NCBI GenBank assembly: GCA_016281125.1
Contig: JAEEIA010000013.1
Span: forward strand, 1-64,000
Length of the DNA stretch: 64,000 nt
Reading direction: 5' to 3'
Origin: Oscillospiraceae bacterium
Lineage (GTDB): Bacteria; Bacillota; Clostridia; Oscillospirales; Ruminococcaceae
Shown here: piece by piece, positions 5,296-56,042 of the stretch
Numbering within the stretch: the first letter of the stretch is position 1
Layout of the letters: the number at the start of each line of letters is the position of its first letter
The notes under the pieces: model-generated
The model's database searches: none
Seen by the model: only the letters and a program-made list of their open reading frames with translations
Told to the model about the DNA's origin: nothing
Translations under genes and position numbers: made by a program

Positions 5296-5674
5296 ATGCA
5301 CGCGATCATTCGTCAGGGTAATGGAAAATACTATATTTCTGCCGTGTTCGGATATTATAGAGATATCTCAGCAGCGGATTACTATGAAAGTAATCCCTAC
5401 TGGATTGTCTGGGATGCTGAAATGAAGCATCTTATCAGATGGTTGGCTATGACCCCCAATACTAAATCAGTTCTTACCGAAAGGCGACTGCAATGCTGAC
5501 GGCAGCTTCACGATCGTCGACGTCATCCTTCTGCAAAAATGGCTTCTTACCGTTCCGGATACAGAACTTGCAGACTGGCCTTCCTGTGATTTATTCAGAG
5601 ACGGAAAACTGAATGCGATTGATCTGAGTCTCATGAAACGGGAATTGTTAGGCAGTCAGCAAGAAGGGCCTTGA
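5296..5674 (+). pseudogene. Frameshifted dockerin protein gene (fragment)
   Basis: The ORF track shows a 67-residue protein ending in LAMTPNTKSVLTERRLQC. One frame over, starting at the C5 run at 5453-5457, the sequence reads on as TPILNQFLPKGDCNADG and then a complete type I dockerin. That dockerin has two calcium loops (GDCNADGSFTIVDVILLQKW and FRDGKLNAIDLSLMKREL) and stops at 5672-5674. Removing one C restores a single reading frame of about 126 residues. No signal peptide is seen. A short open stretch upstream (about 5200-5292, NGVAYTHRNIYYGSD) looks like more of the same protein cut off by a stop, so this is probably the remnant of a larger cellulosomal enzyme. The 4972-5295 stretch otherwise holds nothing I recognise. 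Confidence 0.75.
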
Positions 5675-37122: not shown

Positions 37123-38043
37123 TTACTCCGTGTCATCCATCGTATCGGCGGTGAGTCTTGCTCTCTTGCCGAGGTCGCTGCCCGCAGCAGCCTTTTCAAT
37201 CGAGATGATCTTGTTGTCGTAGTGCATACGGAGCACAAACGCAACGATGCCGGGGTTGTTATCGACGCGGACATTGAAGCGGGCGGTATCGCCGGGCTTT
37301 ACGGAAATGCTGTCGCAGGAGAGTGCCATCTTGGTGCCGGGCTGATCGGTTTCCGGCGCGTCCTTGTTGACTGCGATGTAGCCCTTGATCAGCTCGCAGT
37401 CCTTCAGGATCGAGGTGTTCTCATCCTGGTTTGCGCTGTAATTGGACAGGTCTGCATAATAGAGCTCGACCGGATAAACGCCGTCCGGTGCGTCATCTGC
37501 AACCTTGACCTCGAATTCCAGCAGATTGCCGTCAAAGACAAAATCCTTCTTCTGGGAAACGTCGAGCCAGAGTGCCTGATAGCTCTTGATATCGGGCGTG
37601 TAGTTGACCTGGTAATCAATTTTGCCCGGCTCCTTGTAGGGCTCGGTGACGGTTTCGCCGCTGCCGTTGACGGCGGCCTGTCCGTTGATATCGGTCTTTG
37701 CAACATAGTAATTGCCGTCCTCACCGCGGAACGGTACAGCAACCGGCGTGTCATTCACGTTCTCACTGAACGTCAGCTTCTGGTTGCGGTGACCGTCCTC
37801 ATCGAGGACAACATTCTCCTCCAGCATCTGCATGGCCTGCTCTGCTGCGGAATCCAGCGGTGCAGCCTGACCGCCCTGGTTGTTCTCGCCGCCGTCGCCG
37901 GCGTCGCTGTTGCCCGGGTTGTCAATGTCGCTCAGAACGGGATCTGTCTTGCTGTTTCCCTGGATTTTCTCTCCGCAGGCATACGCCGGGATGGTCACCA
38001 TCGCAGCAAGCAGCACTGCTGTCATTTTCTTCAAAGTGTTCAT
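37123..38043 (-). CDS. Lipoprotein with cohesin-like segments
   Basis: 306 residues. Lipoprotein signal MNTLKKMTAVLLAAMVTIPAYACG with Cys near 23, then a Gly/Asn-rich linker. Residues around 130-215 (DYQVNYTPDIKSYQALWLDV, FDGNLLEFEVKVADDAPDGVYPVELYYADL) resemble the second half of a cohesin. The C-terminus (SISVKPGDTARFNVRVDNNPGIVAFVLRMHYDNKIISIEKA) resembles the first half. The protein ends about 25 residues later, so the second unit is incomplete or the fold is permuted. It could hold dockerin enzymes such as those at 6.8-12.1 kb at the membrane (inference). ATG 38043 lies nine bases after AAAGGAG. Confidence 0.72.
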   Translation of the reverse strand: MNTLKKMTAVLLAAMVTIPAYACGEKIQGNSKTDPVLSDIDNPGNSDAGDGGENNQGGQAAPLDSAAEQAMQMLEENVVLDEDGHRNQKLTFSENVNDTPVAVPFRGEDGNYYVAKTDINGQAAVNGSGETVTEPYKEPGKIDYQVNYTPDIKSYQALWLDVSQKKDFVFDGNLLEFEVKVADDAPDGVYPVELYYADLSNYSANQDENTSILKDCELIKGYIAVNKDAPETDQPGTKMALSCDSISVKPGDTARFNVRVDNNPGIVAFVLRMHYDNKIISIEKAAAGSDLGKRARLTADTMDDTE

Positions 38044-38110
38044 AGCCATAGGCTCCTTTCGATTTTCCATTCGTCCCTCTCGGGCAGAGAGAACCCTCTG
38101 TCCGTGTACC

Positions 38111-38139
38111 ATTATACACAATATCGCGCAAAAAGTCAA
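38111..38139 (-). promoter_or_regulatory. Promoter for cohesin-like lipoprotein
   Basis: Reverse strand TTGACT, 17 bases, TATAAT. Confidence 0.75.
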
Positions 38140-46904: not shown

Positions 46905-47010
46905 TTCCATGCATGAAAAATTCTTTTCAGAAAATGTAATCCGGCACCGGTGATTTCTGTCTGTTACAGTGAAGCGCTTCACAACCCCGCGGAGAAAGGA
47001 GGCATCCCGC

Positions 47011-47565
47011 ATGAACGATCAGGAGCTGATCGCGCTGTACTATGCGCGCAGTGAGCAGGCCTCTGCCGAAACATACCGGCAGTTCGGCAGCTGCTGCTAT
47101 ATGATCGCACGCAATATTCTCGGCTGCGCGCAGGACGCGGAGGAATGCGTCAACGATGTGCTGATCCGTCTTTGGGACAGGATCCCGCCTGCAAAGCCGA
47201 AAAACTTTTTCGCGTACATTGCAGCCGTCACGCGCAGCATCGCCTGCAACCGCTATATCGCATCCCGTGCGAAAAAACGCGGCGGCGGAGAGGTCGCGCT
47301 GGCTTTGGAGGAGCTCTGTGACTGCTCCGGCGATGAGAACGTCGAACAGGAGATTGACAAAAAGGCGCTTGCAGAAGCACTGGACGCGTTTCTCGGCACA
47401 TTAAAGCCCGATCACAGAAAGATCTTTGTGCAGCGGTACTGGTACTTCTGCCCTGTGGACGACATCGCGGAACAGTTCGGGATGACCAAATCAAAGGTCA
47501 CGGTGTCGCTGATGCGTACCCGTGAAAAGCTCCGGAACTATCTTGAGGAGGAGGGGTTTTTATGA
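47011..47565 (+). CDS. ECF-type RNA polymerase sigma factor
   Basis: 184 residues. Region 2 (CAQDAEECVNDVLIRLWDRIPP, then NFFAYIAAVTRSIACNRY) and region 4 (LKPDHRKIFVQRYWYFCPVDDIAEQFGMTKSKVTVSLMRTREKL) are both present; region 3 is missing, as in ECF factors. It directs polymerase to a stress or envelope regulon. ATG 47011 follows GAGAAAGGAGG. The stop overlaps the start of the next gene by four bases (ATGA), which fits a sigma/anti-sigma pair. Confidence 0.92.
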   Translation: MNDQELIALYYARSEQASAETYRQFGSCCYMIARNILGCAQDAEECVNDVLIRLWDRIPPAKPKNFFAYIAAVTRSIACNRYIASRAKKRGGGEVALALEELCDCSGDENVEQEIDKKALAEALDAFLGTLKPDHRKIFVQRYWYFCPVDDIAEQFGMTKSKVTVSLMRTREKLRNYLEEEGFL

Positions 47566-50192
47566 AACCGAACGATCTGCTGGATGCCATGGGCCGCATC
47601 TCGTCTGAATATGTCACGGAAGCAAAGCCCGCTCCGAAGCAGCAGACGGATGCCCGCACCGCACAAAACGGTGTGCAGGGCAGTGCGGAGCCGGTCACGG
47701 GTTCCAGCAGCGGTGCATCTGTGCATCAAACAACAGAAAAGGATTACGTTATGAAAAAGAATACGATCATACGCCGGATCACGACCGGATTTGCAGCGGC
47801 GGCTGCATGCGCCGTTTTTGCAGGCGGCGGCTGGTTTATCTACAAGCAGGCACAGCAGCAGACCGAGCAGGAGCCCGACGGCCAGACAGTTTCGGAAGTC
47901 AGTCAGTCTGAAAGCAGCACACCGGACGTGCAGCAGATCAGCACGAATTTCCTCGGCGGAAAGGGGGAAATCCGGATTCTTGGAAACGGCATGCAGGGTG
48001 AATCGGAAAACGAGACGGTTCTCTATGACGACACCCGCTGGTATTTCAACGGCGCCTCCAGCTATGCTGACCGTACCGGCGAAAACGCAGGCGCGTACCG
48101 CTTAATGCCTTCCGAGGTAACAGCGTATTACACTCATGTGCTGAACGACGGCAAACATTTCTATTACGCGGAGGAGCAAAGCCTTTACACGCTGGAAGAT
48201 GACGGAACGCGCTCCGCTGAGCCGGTCTTTCAGCTGACAGACAACATGCTGGATCCGGCAAAAACGGCGTGGCGCCCGCTGTTCTCCTCAGAGGACACAG
48301 AGGCGGATCACGGAGACAGCACACAGTTCTCTTTCCGCAACATCGTTCCGATGTCGGAGAACAAATGCCTGATCGTTATGTCCGGCCCGCCGGAGTGGTT
48401 CATGGCAATCTGCGACAGGGAAACCGGCGACGTGCAGGTTCTGCCGATCTCCGGTCTTGCAAATCCCCAGCCGGACGATACGATATGCAGCATCTTTCTT
48501 TCCTGCGCAGACGGCAGCGTCATGGCGGTTCTCAACAGCGCGACAATGAAGGACGGCGGGATCATCCGCATTGCGCCGGACGGCAGCTCCGAGGTTTGCA
48601 CGCGCTTCTCCGGCAATACGAATAAAGTACGGTATTATTCCGTGACAAACAACAAGCTGTATGTGCTGCTTGACTCCTACGATGAGATCGGATACCGGTA
48701 CGAATACGGCGAAATCGACCTTTCCACGCATGATATTGTAAAGAACCGTTCACTGTATGACGAGCCCGATCCGTGGGTTTATCTTGCATTTTCAGATCCG
48801 GAAAGAAAGCAGGATTTCGTTGTCAAGCTCTTTTTGGACGAAACCAGCTGGGCGCTTTATGCCACAGATCCCGGGTGGGAAAGCATGACAGAACTGTACC
48901 GTATGGATGAGGCCGAAGCGGAACGGACAAACTGCCGGCAAACAGACGATTCTGCGTATAAAATTGAGGATGCATGGGCAGACGCGCATTATGTGATGAT
49001 GCGGATGAACGGAGAACAGTTCGTGCTTTACGATCTCGGCAGCAAAACCGTTCAGTTTATCCGTGCCTCCGGGGAAGCGGAGGGCGAAGCCACGGGAGCA
49101 GACGAACTGCATCTGGACGAATCGCAGTATACCGAGCTGGATCCGGGCTTTACCGGCACGAATTTCCTCGGCGGGCAGGGCTCGCTGCATATTCCGAAAA
49201 GAATAGGCGGGTTTTCTCCATATGGCTCCTGTGAATTTATGTATGACGAAACATATTACTACGGTGGCGGTATGATCTTCCCGCGCAGCGGAAACCGGTG
49301 CGTGGAATACAGCGGAAATCCGGATTATGAATTTGATCTGGGTTCCCATTATATCATCAGTGACGGCGAACGGCTGTACGTGACAACAAACAGCGCGGTC
49401 AATCTGATCGACAGCAGCGGCAAGCTGACGCCGTTTTTCAGGCTCTCCGATGTCGGAGCTGACGAATATGAAAAGTTTACCGGCGTATTCCGCATTGGAA
49501 GTTCATATTTGTTCTACGGCGCGGAGAATATCTGGGTCGATGAAAACGGCAGGCTGCTCAATGTCAGCCCTGAATATGCTCTGGCACGTGTATGCCCCGG
49601 TTCGCCGGACGATGAACGCAGCAAATATGCGTATTTCTGGGGTCTGGAAGTCGGTAAGACGGAGATCCACCGTCTTGCGGATCCGGCAAGCGGTGAAAAA
49701 ACTCTGAAATTCACACTGCCGGACTGCCGGGAGGACTGGTACAATGAGGAGTACGGATGGTTCAGTGCCGTGACGGATGACAAATTCCTGTATCTGGACA
49801 AGAACGGCGCATTCTGCGGATATGATCCGGATACGGGAGAAAAAACAGTCCTTCTGGAAGCGGGTTCGCCCGATGCCGAAGCAATGGGGGTCAAAGCAGA
49901 AGCGGGTTCGCCCGATGTCGACGCAATGGGGTTCAGATGTGCCGTGATCGACGGCAAGCTCTATTACATGCTGGCAGATCCGTACAGCGAGCAGCCGGAT
50001 CACGCGGATCTGATACAGCTGGATCTGAATACCGGCGAACGGCAGAAGCTGATTTCTTTTGACGTTGCGGAACTGCCCAGCCCGAACTGGATTGGGAGGA
50101 TCGACAGCAAGCTCTCGATCGAACTACTGAACGGCGTTTTTGCGTACTATGATCCCGCAACCGGAGAACTGTTCCGGGTTTCCTATTTTTAA
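47562..50192 (+). CDS. Membrane protein with duplicated beta-propeller-like repeats, probable anti-sigma partner
   Basis: 876 residues. About 70 cytoplasmic residues (MKPNDLLDAMGRISSEYVTEA) are followed by one membrane helix (ITTGFAAAAACAVFAGGGWFIYK) and then a large extracellular part made of two related halves. Each half begins with TNFLGG(K/Q)G and contains (Y/M)(D)ET-YY / DDTRWYF-type turns, DGERLYV and similar, like DUF5050-type propellers. Coupling to the sigma gene and the short N-terminal cytoplasmic domain suggest an anti-sigma factor that senses an external signal; no zinc ZAS motif (HxxxCxxC) is seen. A 42-bp tandem duplication (EAGSPDAEAMG / EAGSPDVDAMG) lies near residue 770. Confidence 0.78.
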   Translation: MKPNDLLDAMGRISSEYVTEAKPAPKQQTDARTAQNGVQGSAEPVTGSSSGASVHQTTEKDYVMKKNTIIRRITTGFAAAAACAVFAGGGWFIYKQAQQQTEQEPDGQTVSEVSQSESSTPDVQQISTNFLGGKGEIRILGNGMQGESENETVLYDDTRWYFNGASSYADRTGENAGAYRLMPSEVTAYYTHVLNDGKHFYYAEEQSLYTLEDDGTRSAEPVFQLTDNMLDPAKTAWRPLFSSEDTEADHGDSTQFSFRNIVPMSENKCLIVMSGPPEWFMAICDRETGDVQVLPISGLANPQPDDTICSIFLSCADGSVMAVLNSATMKDGGIIRIAPDGSSEVCTRFSGNTNKVRYYSVTNNKLYVLLDSYDEIGYRYEYGEIDLSTHDIVKNRSLYDEPDPWVYLAFSDPERKQDFVVKLFLDETSWALYATDPGWESMTELYRMDEAEAERTNCRQTDDSAYKIEDAWADAHYVMMRMNGEQFVLYDLGSKTVQFIRASGEAEGEATGADELHLDESQYTELDPGFTGTNFLGGQGSLHIPKRIGGFSPYGSCEFMYDETYYYGGGMIFPRSGNRCVEYSGNPDYEFDLGSHYIISDGERLYVTTNSAVNLIDSSGKLTPFFRLSDVGADEYEKFTGVFRIGSSYLFYGAENIWVDENGRLLNVSPEYALARVCPGSPDDERSKYAYFWGLEVGKTEIHRLADPASGEKTLKFTLPDCREDWYNEEYGWFSAVTDDKFLYLDKNGAFCGYDPDTGEKTVLLEAGSPDAEAMGVKAEAGSPDVDAMGFRCAVIDGKLYYMLADPYSEQPDHADLIQLDLNTGERQKLISFDVAELPSPNWIGRIDSKLSIELLNGVFAYYDPATGELFRVSYF
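49857..49940 (+). repeat. 42-bp tandem duplication
   Basis: GAAGCGGGTTCGCCCGATG starts both units (49857 and 49899). It encodes two 14-residue units in the propeller protein and is in frame. Confidence 0.9.
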
Positions 50193-50204: not shown

Positions 50205-50242
50205 AAGACGGCCGGATTCCGATGCAGGAATCCGGCCGTCTT
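50205..50242. terminator. Bidirectional terminator
   Basis: Perfect 16-bp stem AAGACGGCCGGATTCC / GGAATCCGGCCGTCTT between convergent genes, with TTCTG after. Confidence 0.9.
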
Positions 50243-50259
50243 TTCTGCTTGTATTCAGA

Positions 50260-53822: not shown

Positions 53823-54899
53823 TCAGTGCTCGAGATAATCCCGAACCTTTTTGCTTCTGCTGGGGTGCCGGAGCTTCCGGAGCGCTTTCGCTTCAATCTG
53901 ACGGATGCGCTCACGCGTGACATTGAAGGCCTTTCCGACATCCTCCAGCGTTTTCGGCGGCTCATTGTCCAGCCCGTAGCGCATCCGCAGGACGTCCGCT
54001 TCACGCGGCGTCAGTGTGGAAAGCACCTCGTTGAGCTGTTCCTTGAGCATCGTGTTGTTTGCCGCATCATTCGGGGACTGCGCGTGATTATCCGGGATGA
54101 AGTCGCCGAGGTGGCTGTCCTCCTCCTCACCGATCGGTGTTTCAAGAGAAACCGGCTCCTGAGCGATGCGCATGACCTCGCGCACCTTGTCGATCGGCAT
54201 ATCGAGATAATCCGCGATCTCCTCCTCGGAGGGATCCCGTCCGTTCAGATGCAGCAGCTGGCTGGAAGCCTTTTTGACGCGGGTGATCGTTTCGACCATG
54301 TGGACGGGAATCCGGATCGTCCTTGCCTGATCCGCAATCGCGCGGGTAATGGACTGGCGGATCCACCATGTCGCATAGGTCGAGAACTTAAAGCCCTTGG
54401 TATAGTCGAATTTATCGACCGCTTTCAGCAGTCCCATGTTCCCCTCCTGAATCAGGTCAAGGAACTGCATGCCGCGTCCGACATATTTCTTTGCAATGCT
54501 GACGACCAGACGGAGATTTGCCTCGGAAAGGCGGTTCTTTGCGGCCTGATCGTTCGGGTTATCGGCAAGTCTTCTTGCCAGATCTGTCTCTTCCTCGGGT
54601 GTCAGGAGCGGCACGCGGCCGATCTCCTTGAGATAGATCTTGACAGGGTCATCCGGAGAGGAGCCGCCCTCCAGGGACATTGCATCCTCCTCCGCGAGCC
54701 GTGTTTCGATATCGTCGTCCAGCAGCTCCTCGTCCGCGAGCTCAAGATTCAGCAGGTTGCACTGCTCGTAGAATGCGCTGATCTCCTCATCGGTGAATTC
54801 CATCTCCGAAAAGGCGGTGTCCAGCTCATTCTGCGGGAGCTTTCCGCTGAGCTTAATCCGTTCAAGAAGCTGATCGACCTTCTGATTATCTGCTGCCAT
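53823..54899 (-). CDS. Primary-type sigma factor, second tandem copy
   Basis: 358 residues. Regions 2, 3 and 4 match sigma-[79 protein letters not shown], and [29 protein letters not shown]. The DNA-contact helices in 2.4 and 4.2 are nearly the same as in the copy at 54990. The acidic N-terminal region (residues 1-85) and region 3 differ clearly. It is probably a paralogue with overlapping promoter preference. ATG 54899 has AAGGGAGGAAACA upstream. It lies 90 bases after the first copy. Confidence 0.92.
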
Positions 54900-54989: not shown

Positions 54990-56042
54990 TCAGTCAATAT
55001 ATCCTTGCAGCTTTTTGCTTCTGCTGTAATGCTTGAGCTTCCGGAGCGCCTTGGCTTCGATCTGCCGGATGCGCTCACGGGTGACCCCGAGCGCCTTTCC
55101 GACGTCCTCAAGCGTCTGCTGTCTGCCGTTTTCCAGCCCGTAGCGCATCCGCATGACCTTTGCTTCGCGCTCTGTCAGGGTGGAGAGCACCTCATTGAGC
55201 TGCTCCTTCAGCATGGCATTGGAGGCCGCCTCGTCCGGAGAGGGCGCCTGATCGTCCGGGATGAAGTCACCGAGGTGGCTGTCCTCCTCCTCACCGACCG
55301 GCGTTTCCAGCGAAACGGGATCCTGTGCGATGCGCATGATCTCGAGCACCTTTTCCACGGGCATCTCGAGCTTTTTGGCGATTTCCTCGGGGCTTGCTTC
55401 CTGTCCGGTTTCGTGCAGAATCTGGCTGGAAACCTTCTTCACCTTGGTGATGCTCTCCACCATATGCACGGGAATACGGATCGTTCTCGCCTGATCGGCC
55501 AGCGCTCTGGTGATTGCCTGCCGGATCCACCATGTTGCATAGGTGGAGAACTTGAAGCCCTTGGTATAGTCAAACTTATCGACCGCTTTCAGCAGACCCA
55601 TGTTGCCCTCCTGAATCAGGTCGAGGAACTGCATGCCGCGTCCGACATATTTCTTTGCGATGCTGACGACCAGTCTGAGGTTGGCCTCGGCAAGGCGCTG
55701 CCGTGCGGGCTCGTCCTGCGGATTGTCCGCCAGTCTGCGTGCCAGCTCGGTTTCCTCGTCCGTGGTCAGCAGTGCAACCCGGCCGATCTCTTTCAGATAG
55801 ATCTTGACGGAGTCGTCATTCGAGATTTCGTCATTGGCAAGGGTGACGGCGGGATCGGATGCGTCCTCCAGCGAGAGCTCGTCATCGACCAGCTCAATCT
55901 GCATGGCTGAGCAGCGCTCCATGATGTGCTCCGGCTCCAGAGCAAGGCTCTCGGAAGCCTCCTGCACCTCGGCAATGGTTATTTTTCCGCTTGTCTTTGC
56001 CTTCTCAAGGATCTGATCAAGACGCTTTTCTTCATCTGCCAT
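54990..56042 (-). CDS. rpoD: RNA polymerase primary sigma factor
   Basis: 350-residue sigma-70/SigA. Region 1.1-like start [38 protein letters not shown] (1.2), the invariant 2.1-2.4 block ending [29 protein letters not shown], region 3, and 4.2 [28 protein letters not shown]. It confers recognition of TTGACA/TATAAT promoters, which dominate this window. It follows dnaG by 86 bases, with AAAGGAGGAAACC before the ATG, the classic dnaG-rpoD order. A second sigma-A paralogue lies immediately downstream. Confidence 0.95.

Follow-up and report, generated by a model that had tools for sequence, protein, structure and literature searches.

The genes at 47,011 to 50,192 of the window (the whole 64,000-nucleotide stretch of Oscillospiraceae DNA that was analysed) probably form a two-gene sigma/anti-sigma unit, in which a short cytoplasmic tail would hold an ECF sigma factor through its region 4 (sigma4), extracellular propellers would act as the sensor, and the family of such pairs would tune surface enzymes and scaffolds. 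Our best reading is that of a minimal anti-sigma family, RsgI-like but not homologous to RsgI, which has expanded greatly in a gut bacterium with cellulosomes of the Ruminococcus type. The sigma/anti-sigma interpretation, first put forward in a preliminary description of this DNA, is upheld by the layout of the operon and the co-evolution of a tail motif with sigma4.

The operon and its two products

The sigma gene runs from an ATG at 47,011 to a stop at 47,565 (plus strand, 184 aa). It is followed by the gene of a single-pass membrane sensor and putative anti-sigma factor, hereafter the partner (47,562 to 50,192, plus strand, 876 aa); the two ORFs share an ATGA, that is, they overlap by 4 bp. 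The same layout is repeated in the close relatives L064 to L067 and L069, and 203 of the 231 pairs of the wider family have exactly this 4-bp overlap; the arrangement is therefore far beyond chance. Because an ECF-type promoter (TGTAAT, 17 nt, TGTC; 46,933 to 46,964, plus strand) lies in front of the genes and a hairpin terminator behind them, sigma and partner look like a closed two-gene operon. The intrinsic terminator, read directly from the sequence, has a 14-bp stem, a 6-nt loop and a T run (50,207 to 50,244, plus strand). AddAB-like helicase-nuclease genes (assigned by reading) are found on one side of the operon and a converging rubrerythrin gene on the other. No dockerin or CAZyme neighbour was found among the genes around the pair, nor any dockerin gene within 5 kb downstream.

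The sigma protein matches TIGR02937 (E = 2.7e-22) and the Pfam models Sigma70_r2 and Sigma70_r4_2. By Pfam, regions 2 and 4 are present and region 3 is absent, which is the domain content of an ECF factor, and the nearest solved relative of the family profile is SigW (5wuq, E = 9e-16). Judged by these matches, it is an ordinary ECF sigma factor. The SigI model is absent from the best 25 of its 77 NCBIfam matches. Two other sigma genes lie in the window, on the minus strand, at 53,823 to 54,899 and 54,990 to 56,042: they are RpoD-like and of primary type, each with regions 1.2, 2, 3 and 4, and their side-by-side position looks unusual.

The partner begins with a 22-residue motif, MKPNDLLDAMGRISSEYVTEAK (47,562 to 47,627, plus strand), which is common to nearly all 231 partners and is predicted to bind sigma. 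A transmembrane helix follows at residues 73 to 94 approximately (47,778 to 47,843, plus strand); it was detected by hydropathy and falls within an AlphaFold2 helix spanning residues 60 to 101. This helix is rich in A and G, and its hydropathy lies under a stricter cut-off of 1.6. Outside the membrane, a first predicted beta-propeller covers residues 122 to 520 approximately and begins TNFLGGKGEIRI (47,925 to 49,121, plus strand; AlphaFold2 and Foldseek), and a second, supported by HHalign against the first, covers residues 534 to 876 approximately and begins NFLGGQGSLHI (49,161 to 50,189, plus strand). Profile comparison indicates that the two halves are homologous to each other (HHalign 98%, E = 2e-13). 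In the AlphaFold2 model both are all-beta (mean pLDDT 66.8, pTM 0.53), and the top PDB fold matches found by Foldseek are mostly multi-propeller proteins (tricorn protease at 2e-14, the BT4663 sensor domain, LRP6 and GH74), with low whole-chain TM-scores. These results support a double beta-propeller as the fold class of the exterior; since the model is moderately confident, the proposal is confined to the class and does not extend to the details. The partner contains no Pfam family, and its NCBIfam matches are sub-cut-off noise only. The zinc motif HxxxCxxC is absent from it, as it is from every other partner (0 of 231). The preliminary description thus holds on all of its structural points: an ECF sigma gene coupled to a large propeller-like partner at this place, a short cytoplasmic domain devoid of a ZAS motif, one membrane helix and two homologous extracellular halves.

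The promoter was examined at three scales. Around the window pair, the elements TGTAAT[CT] and [CT]CTGTCT are kept upstream of five relatives. Across the family, 64 of the 229 upstream regions contain the pattern TGTnA[CTG]-N18-GTC, compared to 0.6 expected, and 17 contain it with a 17-nt spacing (the expectation across spacings being 0.6 to 0.8); other spacings are near background, with smaller peaks at 14 and 22. When a promoter model was fitted from a seed of this form, most of the 30 sigma genes in the window genome were assigned a site upstream. A predicted ECF-type promoter hence precedes the sigma gene, in keeping with its ECF assignment, and since the sigma genes carry such promoters, the window operon is likely autoregulated. 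At the scale of the genome, the operon's own site was the only match to the window promoter with fewer than three mismatches, and the strict general motif TGTAAC-CGTC was not enriched (7 occurrences, versus 42 in the reversed control); a large shared regulon was therefore not found by this genome-wide motif search. Two individual candidates were discarded. One, on contig C73, has its promoter match inside a transporter gene (by reading); the other, upstream of a cohesin gene of the window (38,178, minus strand), is at chance level, as we estimate that about two such matches are expected per 64 kb. Contig C73 also encodes a propeller-like protein (L263), whose gene precedes ABC transporter genes and by reading is unlinked to the sigma family.

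Co-evolution of the tail with sigma region 4

The tail has a family-wide consensus of approximately M[KN]xx[DE][LF][LF][DE]A[ILM]GxI[DP][DE]x[YLF][IV]xEA. Mean-field direct-coupling analysis was applied to 228 sigma/partner pairs (195 effective). The best coupling joined sigma R136 to partner E20, with a score of 3.4 compared to permutation maxima of 1.0 to 1.9; further top couplings were V140-I13, D125-S14, F146-L7, G129-Y17, L120-A9, A121-R12 and L102-L6 (sigma residue first). Sigma residues 114 to 158 (47,350 to 47,484, plus strand) held nine of the ten top inter-protein couplings, where about a quarter was expected (P = 2.6e-5), and this sigma4 surface is predicted to bind the N-terminus of the partner. 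The top pairs were unchanged when the genome of the window was left out. In pairs whose sigma factor has another residue in place of R136, position 20 of the partner is frequently basic or neutral (Q-K, C-R, A-K), a pattern that, on these alignments, is charge-compensating. Nothing comparable was seen with the juxtamembrane stretches of the partners.

Couplings of this kind could in principle reflect only the shared ancestry of duplicated operons, with no physical contact. Joint duplication alone would indeed make sigma and motif distances correlate, and they do (Mantel r 0.41 overall, 0.53 in the window's own genome). However, the couplings gather in a single hairpin of sigma4 and pick out individual residue pairs. 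In a control of equal ancestry, the membrane segment of these partners, neither such strength nor such concentration was seen. Moreover, pairing could be predicted across genomes even when close pairs were removed. Using couplings trained on other genomes only, we scored all combinations among the 30 pairs of the window genome: with the top 20 couplings, the true partner had a median rank of 1 out of 30 and came first in 19 of the 30 cases. After removal of training pairs more than 60% identical, the median rank was 5 out of 30. The permutation P for this out-of-sample pairing was below 2e-4. The window pair itself ranked first with the top 20 couplings in both the full and the reduced training sets; with the reduced set it fell to rank 4 when 40 couplings were used and to rank 12 when all were used. 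We therefore consider shared ancestry alone a very improbable explanation, and these covariation data support a specific contact between the tail of the partner and the first helices of sigma4.

The preliminary description had assigned sigma binding to the N-terminal 70 residues. It is indeed the N-terminus that couples with sigma4, but the predicted contact is narrower and comprises about 22 residues. The same description named the lack of any interaction between N-terminus and sigma as the outcome that would overturn it, and the strong residue-level co-evolution, a computed result, contradicts such a lack. No coupling of the tail or of the juxtamembrane stretch with sigma2 rose above the null in the direct-coupling analysis, to which invariant contacts would be invisible. 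Either the family uses one sigma surface, or its sigma2 contacts are invariant and escape this method.

Co-evolution indicates contact and not the sign of regulation, so the partner might bind sigma mainly to activate, deliver or stabilise it, in the manner of a pro-sigma or a membrane tether. The single contact surface seen here, which is less than the dual blockade exerted by known anti-sigma factors (PMC7406223), would fit such a role. On the other hand, an overlapping operon, a single-pass protein and an ECF-type promoter make up the layout of an ordinary anti-sigma pair, and known anti-sigma domains place their first helix on sigma4 (PMC7406223). An activator or tether is thus unlikely, if somewhat less so than shared ancestry, and inhibition by the tail is the reading we keep below.

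A family of thirty pairs in a cellulosome-type genome

The window genome contains 30 strong paralogues of the sigma factor (E below 1e-37), plus a weak one. In all 30 strong cases, the sigma gene is followed by an overlapping gene for a membrane protein, which starts with a similar motif of 21 to 22 residues and diverges completely thereafter. In the family of 231 pairs, 230 partners have a membrane helix (hydropathy of at least 1.4); the motif is separated from this helix by a median of 15 residues, compared to about 50 in the window protein. A survey of 120 genomes of the same taxonomic family found the sigma family in 55, mostly in one or two copies (copy numbers are lower bounds); at the threshold of that survey, the window genome had at least 28 copies and the next genome at least 19. 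Order-wide, 99 of 197 genomes contained it. Nearly all named relatives belong to uncultured Oscillospiraceae, Ruminococcus or Clostridia, and many of these genomes come from ruminants. Among 90 relatives scanned, a handful matched any Pfam or NCBIfam model, and no such model covers the tail.

The exteriors are of several kinds. By Pfam, three of the 30 partners have PASTA domains and one has a serpin (E = 1e-60); another has a dockerin match just below the cut-off (E = 6e-4), and a second probable dockerin exterior was recognised by eye in L059. In the L041 partner (G000:C76), two stretches match scaffoldin cohesins (E = 0.001 and 0.009), and the L053 partner (G000:C1) has a sub-threshold cohesin match; both exteriors are probable double cohesins. 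For L041 the predicted structure is of low confidence (pLDDT 41), and Foldseek lists the cohesin dyad 3l8q among mixed matches, which is no more than suggestive. Such a double-cohesin partner would be a sensor into which dockerin proteins could plug. The propeller unit signature N-x-x-G-G-x-G is present in seven of the 30 partners. Since the sister exteriors include serpin, PASTA, dockerin and probable cohesin domains, the signals to which the family responds are not necessarily sugars, and the carbohydrate sensing put forward in the preliminary description is, for the window pair, a hypothesis. The partner with the full serpin exterior (L046, G000:C25, 14.7 to 16.8 kb approximately) is apparently a membrane-tethered protease inhibitor wired to a sigma factor, and could sense proteases.

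The same genome is rich in cellulosome components: at least 150 dockerin matches at E up to 0.01, and 16 cohesins over the cut-off. Three dockerin-bearing ORFs are in the window itself, on the plus strand (at 5,480, 8,749 and 11,949), together with a secreted or lipoprotein-like gene on the minus strand (37,123 to 38,139), whose frame ends in the middle of a cohesin (Pfam positions 2 to 56 of 139) and which appears to be either truncated or frameshifted. A dockerin gene on the same strand within 5 kb downstream was found for 8 of the 30 sigma pairs, compared to 3.4 expected (P about 0.01); at the other distances tested, P ranged from 0.006 to 0.07. The adjacency is modest. In at least four pairs (L037, L047, L049 and L050) the dockerin gene begins within about 85 bp of the end of the partner gene, and the double-cohesin partner of L041 adjoins a downstream dockerin gene encoding a CBM4_9-esterase. 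Locus L039 (G000:C60:48350-54770) has a tandem of two sigma/propeller pairs that closely resemble each other, and the next gene downstream of this propeller sister encodes a GH26-CBM35-dockerin protein. A correlation between sigma copies and dockerin number was also considered and set aside (Spearman 0.50 over 27 genomes, 0.35 with P = 0.09 once two extremes were removed). As dockerin-free genomes also carry the sigma family (G015 and G044, eight copies each), cellulosome control is at most one use of it.

Plausible, though in our view less probable, is the alternative that the sensor responds to the envelope or to a protein (the state of the cell wall, a protease or a secreted protein) and is unrelated to polysaccharides or cellulosomes. 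The PASTA and serpin exteriors of sister partners, the several pairs found in dockerin-free genomes, the lack of a CAZyme or dockerin neighbour at the window pair, and the many kinds of ligand bound by beta-propellers are all in its favour. However, the window genome is rich in cellulosome-type genes, a GH26-CBM35 dockerin enzyme follows the propeller sister pair, and the window propeller is found also in one secreted dockerin protein: propeller 1 is 39% identical to part of this protein, encoded on contig C1 (G000:C1:123536), upstream of which no ECF-type promoter was found.

We propose that the first 22 or so residues of the partner form one or two short helices lying on the first two helices of sigma4, a placement based on co-evolution, and that the tail would thereby keep the ECF sigma inactive at the membrane. 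The single membrane helix would link it to two extracellular propellers acting as the sensor. A ligand located at the cell surface or close to it, possibly a glycan or a cellulosome-type protein in the case of the window pair, would alter the outer part and cause release of the tail, probably by proteolysis as in RsgI. Once freed, sigma would use the promoter at 46,933 to 46,964 to transcribe its own operon, and would also transcribe other targets; 30 largely insulated sigma/sensor pairs could in this way tune surface enzymes and scaffolds. A bolder proposal, which we regard as doubtful, is that a dedicated ECF suite controls Ruminococcus-type cellulosomes, with a peptide code of 22 residues that binds sigma4 and keeps each sigma factor insulated, that this suite senses the assembly of the cellulosome, and that the window propeller reads a cellulosomal or glycan ligand. 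If so, the cohesin and dockerin exteriors would let the cell sense the assembly state of its cellulosome besides plant material, and the window propeller would share its ligand with the dockerin-propeller protein of contig C1.

Relation to known sigma/anti-sigma systems

No description of this family was found in the literature consulted, which was largely open-access and did not include the principal ECF classification. The closest parallel is SigI/RsgI of Clostridium (Acetivibrio) thermocellum, where a cellulosome producer likewise has a suite of paralogous sigma factors and membrane anti-sigma factors whose extracellular sensors are interchangeable. In that system, the N-terminal domain of RsgI binds the C-terminal domain of sigma, and the model involves an outer sensor, intramembrane cleavage and sigma release (PMC12203970). 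The differences are several: the sigma factor here is an ECF one; the partner has no RsgI_N domain (PF12791); the cytoplasmic contact is a motif of about 22 residues, and there is no recognised autocleaving periplasmic domain; there are 30 pairs instead of 8 to 9; and the sensors are propellers, PASTA, serpin, dockerin and probable cohesin domains, whereas those of RsgI are CBMs. A search for RsgI_N returned nothing over the cut-off in the window genome; by analogy, the window pair would therefore be RsgI/SigI-like in its working and not a member of that family. The analogy drawn in the preliminary description, with cellulosome control in Clostridium through a different sensor, agrees well with a suite of 30 paralogous sigma/sensor pairs in a cellulosome-type genome.

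Among ECF systems, CnrH/CnrY (class II) shares with the window pair a short zinc-free N-terminal tail, a single-pass protein and a helix on sigma4, the latter known here from co-evolution only. Known ECF anti-sigma classes contact both sigma2 and sigma4, the first helix of CnrY being on sigma4 (PMC7406223); in contrast, a sigma2 contact was not detected here, and the exteriors are large and modular. The CnrY-type model NF033790 was not among the matches of the window protein, and matched 1 of 90 relatives (E = 0.0011). The ZAS proteins of class I, such as RsiW, are alike in their gene pair, their membrane anchor and the nearest solved sigma, SigW, but differ by the zinc motif that all partners lack. 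As for the exterior, BT4663, a hybrid two-component sensor of Bacteroides and a top fold match, also has an extracytoplasmic multi-propeller, which there senses glycans; unlike the partner, it signals through a kinase and not a sigma factor, and no sequence family common to the two could be detected.

The unusually small sigma-binding tail, with a pairing that can be predicted from sequence, could be useful for the design of orthogonal switches. With regard to cellulosomes, a 2024 survey of producers found the RsgI sensor suite only in Acetivibrio-type species (PMC11557425). The family described here is a concrete and testable candidate for the regulation of Ruminococcus-type cellulosomes, which that survey left open, and the window pair may be part of it.
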